From the NCBI RefSeq assembly GCF_016901835.1, contig NZ_JACJKX010000002.1, positions 124,001 to 188,000 on the forward strand: DNA of 64,000 bases, written 5' to 3'. The notes under the pieces are model-generated. The model did no database searches, was not told the origin of the DNA, and saw only the letters and a list, made by a program, of their open reading frames with translations. Below, piece after piece: positions 173 through 7,320 of this stretch. Each line of letters starts with the position of its first letter. The stretch's first letter is position 1. This stretch comes from Parasutterella secunda. Its GTDB lineage: Bacteria; Pseudomonadota; Gammaproteobacteria; Burkholderiales; Burkholderiaceae_F. A program made the translations under genes and the position numbers.

Positions 173-598
173 TTATTTGATGGTAAAGCGCACCTGAGCC
201 GGAACGCCACCGGTCAAATCGCCGGGCTTAACACTGCGGAATGCGTTTTCAGCATCCACACCTTTCTTAACCGCAGCCTCAACCTTTTGCTTCAAGGTCG
301 CCATTTCCTTATCGTCCTTAGCATTTAAGGAAACCTTAAAGTGACCGTCGGCCGCAATAGAGTTCACGGAGTTGCCACCAGTGAAACCTGATACCACGCA
401 TTGCTTTTGCGAAGGAATTGCTTTTTCAATTTCCATGATCGCTCGGGCAGCTGCATGCACAGCATTGGTATTGCCGTATGCACCATTACTGTGTCCGCCG
501 GGCCCCTGGATATCAACGGACATCACTGTGGAGACATCGGCCATCGCCACCGAGGCAGCAAAAGAACCTAATAAAGCTACTAATAATTTTCCTTTCAT
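173..598 (-). CDS. Secreted free-standing M20-type lid (dimerisation) domain protein
   Basis: This 141-residue protein has a clear Sec signal peptide (positive MKGK start, hydrophobic core, cleavage near AMA-D at about residue 20). The mature part reads like the isolated dimerisation/lid domain of M20 peptidases. It has a GPGGHS motif (residues 32-37), NAVHAAARAI after it, GGNSVNSI (74-81), and a final helix with KKGVDAENA. No HxD, EE or other metal-binding motif of the catalytic domain is present, so it cannot be a peptidase alone. A GGAG Shine-Dalgarno lies 6 bases before the ATG. It starts 21 bases after the stop of the M20 peptidase gene, so the two are very likely co-transcribed. I infer a role as a partner, regulator or substrate-binding subunit of that peptidase. 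A decayed duplicate is possible, but the intact signal peptide, start site and reading frame argue against it. Confidence 0.8.
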   Translation of the reverse strand: MKGKLLVALLGSFAASVAMADVSTVMSVDIQGPGGHSNGAYGNTNAVHAAARAIMEIEKAIPSQKQCVVSGFTGGNSVNSIAADGHFKVSLNAKDDKEMATLKQKVEAAVKKGVDAENAFRSVKPGDLTGGVPAQVRFTIK

Positions 599-619
599 AA
601 TGTTCTCCGATGTTCCCTA

Positions 620-2317
620 TTAGTACATATCCTCTGTCGTGCGAGCGCCGATCGGATCAGCCGTCGGTCTGACCACTTCACCCGTGCTCGTATGGTATCC
701 GGCTGCCGTCAAGCCCATCAAGACCATACGGAAAATGCGTTTGCCTTCGTCTTGAGCATTACCCGGAATACCCCATTCGTTAAAGGTATGACCGCCACCG
801 TTGGCCGCCACCGTATGAACGTTGAAGTTCACCGTCGGCACGCCGACCGCAGCCGGCACATTGTCGTTCAAGCTCGAAGAATTGGTCTTCAATTCTTTGA
901 GCTTGTCAATACCGACTGTTTGAGCCGACTGCCAGTAAATTTGCGTAGCGATGTCATTGAAGTTAGCGCGTTGGTGAGCAGGACGGTCACCGAACCACAC
1001 CAATTCCATCTTCACAGCGTTCTTATCACCGGCTTTGACGCCATACTTGGCGTTTTCTTCATCCATGCCAGCCTTGAACGTCGGTTCGATTTGTTTACGA
1101 ATGGCACTCAACGGTCCTTGCGTCGGAGAACGCATGTCAACCATTAACGTGCAAGAGCGGGAACGTTCACCGGGAGCGGCCGTATCGCAGCTTGCCACAC
1201 CCACCGTGTAGGTTGTACGTTCGGCTTTCTTATCCAAATCCCAGGGCGACTTCACATCGGCAATCTTGGCAATTGCACGGGTCATGGCCATCATAGCGCT
1301 CGGTGCTTCAGCTCCGCCTTGCTTGTAGCCTGCCGGTTCCGTGTACTTGATTTCAAAGCGGTAGCTGCCCAAGTAATTGAGCGTACCCGAACCCGGACGA
1401 GTAGAGTCAGCACCGAAGTTGGCGACAAAGTTCAAGGCGTTGTTACCCTTGCCGGTATCTTGGTTATAACCGTAGAGCTGCTTCATTCCGCAGAGGTTAC
1501 CCTTACCTTCTTCACCGGTCGTACCGCAAACCCAGATGTCATACACAGGTTTGATGTTGTACTTCTTCATCATGATGGCAGCGGTCATCACACCGGTCGT
1601 ATTACCCATGGCATCGGCAAATCCGGGCACATAGATACGATAGCCGCCCTTCTTTTGAGCGTCTTCAAGACTGGCATAGCGAACGTATGCTTTCTTGTAG
1701 TTTTCGTCCTGGATAATCTTGCCGTTCTTATCGAAATGCAATTCATCCTTAAGTGCAGCTAGCTCTTGAGGAGAGGCAACAATCGGTTCCGAGGCCTTTT
1801 GTAATTTCACCGGCATGTACGGGTTGCTCTTCGGGGGCAACTTCGCCGGGTTCACTGTATCGGTATGGCCTTCGAGCAAGACTTTCGGGAATTGTCCTTT
1901 ATAGCTCTTTGCACCCTTTTCTTGAGAGTAAGTACCGGGGATACGAACGCAGACGTTGTAGACCGGCATGCCGTCTACTTTCTGGATACCAGCGCCCTTA
2001 ATAATGCCTTCGGGCGTGGTCATGATATCGCTTTTATCAAAACCCCATTCCTCAACCATACGACGGGCAAGCTCTTCAGCACGACGCATTTCATAACGGG
2101 AAGGTGAAGCAATACGCGCTACTTCCATATGAGTATTGAAACGGAATTGGGCGTTTTCATCGCTCGTGAGCTCGGTGAGCATCTTTTGCATCACGGGATC
2201 TTTATAAATTGTCTCGGCTGCCTTTTGTACATCGGTGCTCACTTGCGGCACTACAGCGTAGGCAACGCCTGTAATCATCGCAAGACCGACGGCTAATGCA
2301 CAACGAGTTTTTTGCAT
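620..2317 (-). CDS. Secreted M20 family metallopeptidase
   Basis: This 565-residue zinc peptidase of the M20 clan is predicted to be exported by a Sec signal peptide (cleavage near VAYA, about residue 21). The start at 2317 is chosen because a strong AGGAGG lies just upstream; a longer in-frame version would add 13 residues before the signal. Catalytic-domain motifs are present: GHTDTV (H151, D153), the metal-bridging Asp in GFADAMGN (about D234), the TTGEEGKG pair (about E268-E269), and GGGHTFNEW near the C-terminus (about H509). Two oddities stand out. About 80 residues separate HxD from the bridging Asp, suggesting an insertion of roughly 50. The lid region (about 315-430) lacks the usual GGH and SVN motifs, having AGYKQGG and a cysteine-bracketed segment instead. 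It probably cleaves small peptides in the periplasm. The substrate is unknown. Confidence 0.88.
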   Translation of the reverse strand: MQKTRCALAVGLAMITGVAYAVVPQVSTDVQKAAETIYKDPVMQKMLTELTSDENAQFRFNTHMEVARIASPSRYEMRRAEELARRMVEEWGFDKSDIMTTPEGIIKGAGIQKVDGMPVYNVCVRIPGTYSQEKGAKSYKGQFPKVLLEGHTDTVNPAKLPPKSNPYMPVKLQKASEPIVASPQELAALKDELHFDKNGKIIQDENYKKAYVRYASLEDAQKKGGYRIYVPGFADAMGNTTGVMTAAIMMKKYNIKPVYDIWVCGTTGEEGKGNLCGMKQLYGYNQDTGKGNNALNFVANFGADSTRPGSGTLNYLGSYRFEIKYTEPAGYKQGGAEAPSAMMAMTRAIAKIADVKSPWDLDKKAERTTYTVGVASCDTAAPGERSRSCTLMVDMRSPTQGPLSAIRKQIEPTFKAGMDEENAKYGVKAGDKNAVKMELVWFGDRPAHQRANFNDIATQIYWQSAQTVGIDKLKELKTNSSSLNDNVPAAVGVPTVNFNVHTVAANGGGHTFNEWGIPGNAQDEGKRIFRMVLMGLTAAGYHTSTGEVVRPTADPIGARTTEDMY

Positions 2318-2588: not shown

Positions 2589-2945
2589 ATGCTCATTTCC
2601 ATTGTTTTATTTTTAGTGTTGCAGCTCATTGGCGAGGCCCTCTCGTACGGCTTCGGTTGGCCGATACCCGGCCCGGTTCTCGGCATGATTTTTCTGTTAA
2701 TCGGTTTTTTGGTTAAAGACGATTTGATTGAAAGAGTGCGTTTAACCGCTTCTGTTTTACTGGCTCACTTAGCACTTTTGTTTGTACCGGCAGGCGTTGG
2801 AATCGTACGTCACTGGGACAGAATTTCCGCTGAGTGGGTGGCTATTGCCGCCATTTTGGTGATCGGCACCGCAATTACCATGGTCGTCACTGCCCTTGTC
2901 ATTCAATGGAGTGCCAAACTGATGGGAGTCGATGATGACGATTGA
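2589..2945 (+). CDS. lrgA: CidA/LrgA family membrane protein
   Basis: A 118-residue, four-helix membrane protein with the family pattern: an N-terminal helix, the WPIPGPVLGMI segment after the first helix, then a short charged loop and two more helices. CidA/LrgA proteins were described as holin-like. More recent work on the family links LrgAB to uptake of small organic acids such as pyruvate. The gene overlaps lrgB by 14 bases, the classical translationally coupled pair. No clear ribosome site precedes the ATG, but the N-terminus is colinear with the family. Divergent from the M20 peptidase operon. Confidence 0.88.
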   Translation: MLISIVLFLVLQLIGEALSYGFGWPIPGPVLGMIFLLIGFLVKDDLIERVRLTASVLLAHLALLFVPAGVGIVRHWDRISAEWVAIAAILVIGTAITMVVTALVIQWSAKLMGVDDDD

Positions 2946-3666
2946 ATTGCTGTGGGGTCATTTGGCTCAAAACCCTGTTTTATGGCTCTGCCTGACTCTT
3001 TTTGCCTATCAAATCGGTATCTGGGTTTACCAAAAAAGCGGGTTTATTACTTTGTTGTCACCCTTTGTCATTGCCGTGGCCATTCTTCTTGTGATCCTAT
3101 TTGCCACCCATACCCGATATGAAACATTCTTTGCCGGAGCGCAATTTGTTCATTTTCTTCTTGGACCGGCAACTGTAGCATTGGCCGTTCCGCTTTTTGA
3201 CCAACGTCTGCGCCTGGCAAAACTTTGGGCTCCGTTGTTTATCGGTGTCACAGTGGGCTGTATTGTGGGCGTGGCCTCAACCGTCTTACTTGGCGTACTT
3301 TTTCACGCCTCTTTCGAAAGCATTATGTCCATGGCACCTAAAAGCGTGACTACGCCGATTGCTATGGGAATCTCCGAAAAAATGGGAGGTATTGCTGAGT
3401 TCACCGCCGGAATCGTCGTCTTGACCGGTATCACGGGCTCTTTGCTCGCCGGAATAATATTTAAGCTCTTCGGTATAAAAAAAGACTACATCAAAGGCTT
3501 TGCATTAGGGGTTGCTGCGCACGGCATGGGCACATCAAGAGCTTTTCAAATCAGCGATAAGGCGGGCGCCTTCTCAGGGCTTGCGATGGGATTGGCGGGT
3601 ATCGTCACGGCTTTTGTTGCACCGATGCTCGCCCCGCCTCTTCTTAATTGGTTATTAAATCAATGA
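2932..3666 (+). CDS. lrgB: CidB/LrgB family membrane protein
   Basis: A 244-residue inner-membrane protein with seven to eight hydrophobic segments and the conserved LrgB stretches (SVTTPIAMGISEKMGG, then GIVVLTGITG and AAHGMGTSRA). It is the partner of the upstream LrgA. Its first ATG lies inside the end of lrgA and a second ATG follows immediately, so the start could be three bases later. Function in this organism is not shown by sequence. Candidates are murein hydrolase/autolysis control or organic acid transport. A strong hairpin with a T tract follows the stop. Confidence 0.88.
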   Translation: MMTIELLWGHLAQNPVLWLCLTLFAYQIGIWVYQKSGFITLLSPFVIAVAILLVILFATHTRYETFFAGAQFVHFLLGPATVALAVPLFDQRLRLAKLWAPLFIGVTVGCIVGVASTVLLGVLFHASFESIMSMAPKSVTTPIAMGISEKMGGIAEFTAGIVVLTGITGSLLAGIIFKLFGIKKDYIKGFALGVAAHGMGTSRAFQISDKAGAFSGLAMGLAGIVTAFVAPMLAPPLLNWLLNQ

Positions 3667-6426: not shown

Positions 6427-7320
6427 TTAATTTTGCAGTTCACGAAGCGCTTTGATACGAGCTTCGATCGGGGGATGCGTTGCAAAAAGGGAACCCATTC
6501 CGCCGCTGATACCAAAACCCTTGACGTTGCCCGGCAATTCGGAAGGTTGTTGCCCTCCCAGGCGAGCCAAAGCGTTAATCATCGGTACGGGCGATCCTAA
6601 AGCTTCGGCTGCACCGGCATCCGCACGATATTCACGGTAACGCGAGAAAGCGGCCACAAGCATCGAACCCAAAAGTCCCAAGACCATATCAAGAACCAAG
6701 CTTGTGATGTAGTAACCGGCTCCAGGAGCGTCGCTTTCATTGCGCAAAATTCCACGATCCACGATATTGCCGATCACGCGTGACAAGAATACAACAAACG
6801 TGTTAATCACGCCCTGCATAAGGGTCATCGTCACCATGTCGCCGTTGGCTACGTGGCTCATTTCATGGCCTAAAACAGCCGCCACTTCTTCCTTATTCAT
6901 ACTGGCTAAAAGCCCGTCAGAGACAGCCACTAAAGAATTGTTTTTAGAGGGGCCGGTAGCAAAGGCGTTGGGCTCACCATGGTAAATGCCCACCTCCGGC
7001 ATCGCCACACCTTTGGTTTCAGCCAATTTCGCAACGGTTTGAACCAACCAACGTTCCACTTCGTTGCGCGGGTGCTCAATGTCAATCATCTGCACACCCA
7101 TAGAGTTCTTAGCGATAGTCTTACTCATCATCAAACTGATGATGGAACCGGAAAAACCGATTACTGCGGCAAAGATCAACAGCGATACATAGTTTTGACC
7201 TGCACCGGCAATTTGCGAGAAATCAACCCCGAAAAACCAGCTCACCAAATTCAAGATGATGGACAGCATCACCAAAATGGCCAAGTTGGTCAAGATGAAT
7301 AAACCGATTCGTTTAAACAT
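6427..7320 (-). CDS. htpX: Membrane zinc protease HtpX
   Basis: A 297-residue M48 family inner-membrane metalloprotease involved in quality control of membrane proteins under envelope or heat stress. Two N-terminal membrane helices (about 5-28 and 42-66) are followed by a cytoplasmic catalytic domain with HEMSH (152-156) and [13 protein letters not shown] just before it. Two more hydrophobic segments lie around 165-220. The third zinc ligand probably lies in the [14 protein letters not shown] motif. Full length. Monocistronic by context, with its own terminator and a 143-base upstream gap. Confidence 0.96.

Follow-up and report, generated by a model that had tools for sequence, protein, structure and literature searches.

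A putatively secreted, free-standing M20 lid domain encoded beside a lid-reduced M20 peptidase in Sutterellaceae: a putative two-gene metallopeptidase

In the window (the whole stretch of 64,000 nucleotides that was analysed, G000:C2:124001-188000, from a genome assembly of 1.98 Mb in 73 contigs), a gene for a metallopeptidase of family M20 is followed by a short gene for what looks like the lid of such an enzyme (Table 1). This raises the question of whether the two genes encode separate proteins or the two parts of a single enzyme, in which a free lid supplies residues that the peptidase has lost. The original prediction inferred a split system in which the small protein may supply the lid histidine in trans, and this is supported by the conservation of the pair and by the reciprocal loss of motifs, with no activity or complex having been shown. 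No earlier description of such a two-part arrangement in this very common enzyme family was found; a literature search, which could not reach most subscription journals, returned no description of a free-standing M20 lid.

Table 1. Positions of the features of the peptidase/lid locus in the window.
Feature	Position	Strand	Details
Secreted M20 metallopeptidase gene	620..2317	minus	565 aa from ATG at 2317; signal peptide 1-21 (ends AYA)
Peptidase's own degenerate lid, about residues 316-446	980..1372	minus	Arg396 (DMRS) and Arg445 (GDRP) kept; GGHS and VN gone
Intergenic 21 nt	599..619	minus	Shine-Dalgarno-like GGAG; in frame with both genes, closed by stops
Free lid gene	173..598	minus	141 aa: signal peptide 1-20 (ends AMA) and 121-residue lid with His36, His48, Asn79
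GPGGHS, residues 32-37	488..505	minus	Includes His36, putative trans-acting oxyanion-hole histidine; His in 22/22 free lids
GGNSVNS, residues 74-80	359..379	minus	Includes Asn79, putative trans-acting substrate-binding asparagine; Asn in 22/22 free lids

By domain similarity and motif order, the small protein belongs to the M20 dimerisation/lid domain (PF07687). It matches the M20_dimer profile with an E-value of 1.1e-9 and 38.6 bits (cut-off 21) over 92 of 107 positions, and its sole match among the PDB sequences at E-values up to 10 is the lid of the poly(Asp) hydrolase 7ljh (E 5e-14). The earlier reading of the 141-residue protein as a signal peptide followed by an isolated M20 lid is borne out by both comparisons, neither of which pointed to a non-M20 fold. 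In all 22 copies found in the family, the free lid is a short open reading frame of its own that is not inserted in an M20 catalytic domain, and GPGGHS or APGGHS comes first and GGxxVNxI second; the other matches of the family search, among the matches listed, are open frames of at least 291 residues. The alignment of 21 copies has 30 invariant positions, and the loops bearing the histidine and the asparagine are the best-conserved stretches. The signal peptides of both proteins and their cleavage sites were assigned by eye, without a predictor, and export and a periplasmic location are inferred. Cleavage after AMA and AYA would give mature masses of 12.5 kDa for the lid and 59.7 kDa for the peptidase.

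The large protein is a member of peptidase family M20 by the similarity of its catalytic domain, with a marginal match to PF01546 (E 1.5e-5, 25.5 bits against a cut-off of 24.6) and with matches to 7ljh in sequence (E 2.6e-18) and in structure. The metal and catalytic residues are intact: His151, Asp153, Asp235, Glu269, Glu270, Asp304 and His510 are invariant in the 20 aligned peptidases (from which a truncated copy, in G052, was excluded) and align with identical residues in 13 of 13 single-chain M20 proteins. Because one of the metal ligands is Asp304 (20/20) and not Glu, an activity like that of aminopeptidases or dipeptidases is likely by analogy, the activity itself being unmeasured; in the part of the source that was available, Asp at the third M20 metal position is described as typical of aminopeptidases and dipeptidases rather than of aminoacylases and carboxypeptidases (PMC6271292). 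The peptidase's own lid is degenerate. AGYKQGG (AGYKQ) stands at the place of GPGGHS, and the place of GGTTVNSI is flanked by Cys377 and Cys389 (window 1151-1189), which are invariant in 20/20 peptidases; the alignment confirms both the replaced GGHS and the cysteine-bracketed segment that had been read from the 565-residue sequence.

Some further features of the peptidase were observed. The two cysteines possibly form a disulfide that substitutes for the lost loop. The segment between Asp153 and Asp235 (window 1628-1846) is 57 residues longer than in 13 of 13 aligned single-chain M20 proteins (82 versus 25). An alternative in-frame ATG upstream, at 2356, would give a peptidase of 578 residues.

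The two open reading frames and the 21-nucleotide spacing between peptidase stop and lid ATG are as originally described; the peptidase stop TAA at 620-622 is followed by a second stop, TAG, before the lid ATG. Across the copies, the intergenic distance ranges from about 9 to 28 nt, and GGAG is present in the gap in 15 of the 20 copies listed. Read-through fusion was rejected as biology, since a common frame exists in only 10 of the 20 copies measured and both genes carry a start and a signal peptide of their own. A PepV-type doubled lid in one chain was not found either, the lid modules being two open reading frames split by stop codons. Divergent from the pair, on the plus strand at window 2589-3666, genes for LrgA (PF03788, E 5.8e-28) and LrgB (PF04172, E 2.6e-75) are located.

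The role of the lid has been studied in several M20 enzymes, and the following is taken from the parts of three papers that were available. In carboxypeptidase G2 (CPG2), Arg288 of one monomer's lid contacts His229 and Asn275 of the other monomer's, and Arg324 of the small domain is also named (PMC6271292). The lid histidine helps to build the oxyanion hole in the opposing protomer (PMC10699109). Mutation of the lid residue His206 of Acy1 to alanine leaves the enzyme nearly inactive (cited in PMC4012986). DapE without its lid is inactive, a loss that was put down chiefly to disorder of loop V, the role of His194 being called unconfirmed (PMC4012986). In PepD, mutation of the His does not lower the activity, mutation of the Asn leaves about half and mutation of the Arg leaves none (PMC6271292). 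Since the His and Asn mutants of PepD keep activity and loss of the Arg abolishes it, the residues supplied by a free lid need not, by analogy, be essential in every M20 enzyme.

These residues can be placed on the proteins of this study by their spacing. For comparison, 23 single-chain M20 proteins were taken from these genomes and related ones, after the antisense frame can_L065_11 had been taken out before counting (24 to 23). The CPG2 intervals of 46 and 13 fit this set, in which the first interval is 46 in 17/23 and 47 in 6/23 and the second is 13 in 23/23. Because of this match, the histidine of GGHS is taken as CPG2 229, the asparagine of VN as 275 and the arginine of DMR as 288, an assignment made on the alignment; that the arginine of GxRP corresponds to Arg324 is a weaker inference.

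All four residues are present in 23 of the 23 single-chain proteins. The GGHS histidine is found in 22/22 free lids and 0/20 peptidases, and the VN asparagine in 22/22 free lids and 2/20 peptidases, where it is a chance Asn that falls in the aligned column, within the loop of L053 and L054 and outside a VN motif. The peptidases thus lack a complete M20 lid, and the lid histidine, whose presence would have spoken against the original prediction, is absent in 20/20. The arginines are distributed the other way around, that of DMR being present in 1/22 free lids and 20/20 peptidases and that of GxRP in 0/22 and 20/20. As read from the alignments, the observed split is complementary, with the putatively trans-acting His and Asn on the free lid and the putatively cis-acting Arg pair on the peptidase. 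This goes beyond what had been predicted: the asparagine appears to be split off too, and both arginines of the peptidase's own lid to stay with the peptidase. The split would follow, by analogy, the cis/trans division of the CPG2 dimer. Completion in trans is indicated because a lid-only partner needs no cis-acting Arg, and its enzyme needs no trans-acting His and Asn of its own.

The four diagnostic residues were picked after the CPG2 literature had been consulted, and a count over 37 columns serves as a less selective version. These columns are the positions of the lid region that are at least 90% conserved in the single-chain set, with a bar of 90% for 'kept'. The free lid alone keeps 12 of them, the peptidase alone another 12, and both keep five; the remaining eight are kept by neither or in part, and two of the 12 lid-only columns can still be seen in 16/20 and 17/20 peptidases. 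The columns retained by the free lid sit in two loops, GPGGHS...H and GGxxVNxI, which by analogy would bear the residues acting in the active site of the partner. Those retained by the peptidase include the two Arg positions and the segments that connect the lid to the catalytic domain. Common descent links the 20 peptidases, and likewise the 22 lids, so that their counts do not represent independent events. In addition, the 23 single-chain rows were retrieved through their resemblance to lid or peptidase, which biases them toward motif-bearing sequences. Alignment A2 has 21 lid rows, as the G034 lid, with a run of N in its signal peptide, is counted among the 22 and is absent from A2; the row of L053 begins one codon before its ATG.

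In Sutterellaceae the two genes form a conserved unit. In a search-based survey of 67 family genomes, 21 genomes carry the free lid, in 22 copies (E at most 4.8e-28, the next match being at 3.8e-13), and 20 carry the peptidase, in 21 copies (E at most 1.0e-51, with the next match at 2.5e-28). The observed adjacency is complete: the free lid lies directly downstream, on the same strand, of 21/21 peptidase copies, one of them truncated, in five genera. A scan of genome contigs that finds close relatives only gave six loci, all with the pair. The close relatives that bear names are two Candidatus Aphodousia species, Sutterella sp. UBA1442, Parasutterella secunda ET73 and Turicimonas muris YL45; the last two, in which the pair occurs, are strains of gut bacteria and are placed in Sutterellaceae in the NCBI taxonomy. 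For nine rows of the genus, the median dN/dS is 0.084 for the lid (20 usable of 36 pairs) and 0.047 for the peptidase (28 of 36), rough values with synonymous sites near saturation. Since it is conserved in 20 genomes with low dN/dS, the pair is conserved far beyond chance, and the survey that had been proposed as a check finds it not decaying in relatives.

Some genomes deviate from the simple pattern. In G052 (L079:6171-7002, G052:C562), an intact lid stands beside a peptidase cut to its C-terminal 139 residues; the similarity to the peptidase begins abruptly at 7002, by deletion, insertion or misassembly. G003 has two complete pairs (L080:1586-3727 and L042), with peptidases 82% and 87% identical to that of the window, and contamination of the assembly is not excluded.

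Outside the family, no free lid was found with profile A2 in 399 genomes of the order (E up to 1e-15), 398 of the phylum (1e-17) or 369 of the class (1e-18), where all other matches are frames of at least 419 residues. These sets are samples that partly overlap, and only the best 10 or 11 candidates per genome were scored, so that a weak free lid could escape. No unsplit close ancestor was found, because the peptidase profile A1 matched only the window's own genome among 398 phylum genomes at E up to 1e-35 (best three candidates per genome scored). The poly(aspartic acid) hydrolase PahZ2 (7ljh) is the best PDB match of both parts and therefore suggests, without proof and at the level of sequence, that both descend from a single ancestral gene through duplication followed by reduction.

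The association of the two proteins was approached by structure prediction. As a device for folding, a read-through chain of 714 residues was used, the frames being in phase, and modeled with AlphaFold2 from 44 aligned sequences, ten of them paired. The fusion model has a pTM of 0.79, with a well-folded lid (block means 73 to 96) and a poorly predicted linker and signal peptides. The peptidase alone reaches 0.90, from which about 0.74 would be expected for the fusion if the lid floated freely. Since 0.79 compares with about 0.74, the lid seems to be placed to some degree on the peptidase in the model; this is weak support, and the distance between His36 and the metals is not resolved. The effective error of lid placement would be about 10-13 Å if the peptidase part is equally good in both models, which is middling confidence. 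In a structural search, the best match of the model is 7ljh (Z 29.8, 398 aligned, rmsd 4.1), and Foldseek and VIA-align place the catalytic chain among M20 and M28-type peptidases, in single-chain alignments in which the interface is not visible.

We consider it probable that the two proteins form an obligate heterodimer, with the free lid substituting for the second subunit to complete a single active site; binding and activity are untested, and the complex and its geometry are inferred. The two genes would then encode one periplasmic enzyme. Its large subunit would combine a complete di-metal catalytic domain with a reduced lid that acts as docking platform and supplier of the cis-acting arginines. 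Equipped with its own signal peptide, the small subunit would stand in for the lid of the second protomer of an M20 homodimer and put His36, for the oxyanion hole, and Asn79, for substrate binding, into the active site of the large subunit. Such a complex of 'one and a half' subunits would contain a single active site where the homodimer contains two, and only after export, on being joined by the lid, would the peptidase become active, a dependence that is also inferred. That the lid is a dissociable secreted subunit, making this an exported two-component peptidase that is switched on only when the lid arrives, is possible and is offered only tentatively.

The tight co-occurrence and the gene order would equally suit a regulator, and a free lid that binds the lid or cleft of the peptidase, keeping it inactive until a signal or proteolysis removes the lid, could find a binding site in the peptidase's degenerate lid. 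The switch or inhibitor alternatives that had been raised along with the supply of the histidine cannot be ruled out, but agree less well with the conservation: an inhibitor has no obvious need for His36, Asn79 and GGxxVNxI that are invariant in 22/22 copies, and its target would not be expected to lose exactly those residues and yet keep its full metal site. We regard this explanation as unlikely. A helper in folding or assembly, giving the peptidase stability or preventing its homodimerisation while adding no catalytic residues, would agree with M20 lids being dimerisation modules and with the emphasis of the DapE authors, in the part of their study available, on the ordering of an active-site loop by the lid over supplied residues (PMC4012986). 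It leaves unexplained why the His- and Asn-bearing loops are conserved best, and seems quite unlikely.

One genome, G010, has a free lid (L078:8581-8991, G010:C21) with all motifs kept and without such a peptidase, either in the 18 kb around the lid or among the peptidase matches of the genome. Because of this case, the lid can persist alone, at least for a while. The G010 lid adjoins a truncated arylsulfotransferase open reading frame that covers only the last part of the Pfam profile (277-373 of 374). The case agrees with a lid that works with other M20 enzymes or alone and is adjacent to the peptidase for co-expression only, and the window's genome does contain five further M20 loci. However, these five keep their own GGHS and VN and have no obvious signal peptide, as judged by eye, 21 of 22 lids directly follow this peptidase, and the G010 lid, beside a truncated gene, may be a remnant; a different partner is very unlikely. 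As a fragment of a family domain, the small gene might be read as a decaying, functionless piece of an M20 gene, but this is hardly tenable, being contradicted by its conservation with the peptidase in five genera, its median dN/dS and invariant positions given above, and its own start, signal peptide and Shine-Dalgarno-like site.

The inferred heterodimer can be compared with known M20 architectures. PahZ2 shows GPGGHS, SVNS and DMRS in its matched sequence, but is one chain of 425 residues with a complete lid, whereas the peptidase of the pair has lost GGHS and VN, which a separate protein carries. Homodimeric enzymes such as CPG2, DapE and aminoacylase-1 share the di-metal catalytic domain and the lid, and consist of two identical chains with two active sites, in contrast to one catalytic chain and one lid-only chain, as inferred here. 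The p-aminobenzoyl-glutamate hydrolase AbgA/AbgB is an M20 enzyme formed by two different gene products; both are full-length M20 chains, and unlike in the pair there is no lid-only partner. In monomeric members, the lid is structurally a doubled dimerisation domain, as far as the available part of the source goes (PMC10699109). In enzymes of the PepV type, two lid modules serve one catalytic domain. In PepV both modules are in one chain, whereas in the pair the second module is a separate secreted protein.

The catalytic role of the M20 lid was still being worked out in the DapE study, in the part that was available (PMC4012986). The pair separates the two jobs of the lid, with the putative cis-acting residues on the catalytic chain and the putative trans-acting residues on the small protein, and would offer a natural system in which lid function can be tested by mixing; the small protein may be able to turn the peptidase on. 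It also shows a possible route from a homodimer to a minimal heterodimer by reciprocal loss. Should the tentative reading of a dissociable lid subunit hold, M20 enzymes would have a third quaternary solution in addition to the homodimer and the doubled-lid monomer, and the pair would exemplify a homodimeric enzyme in which one subunit has been pared down to the single domain required by the other.
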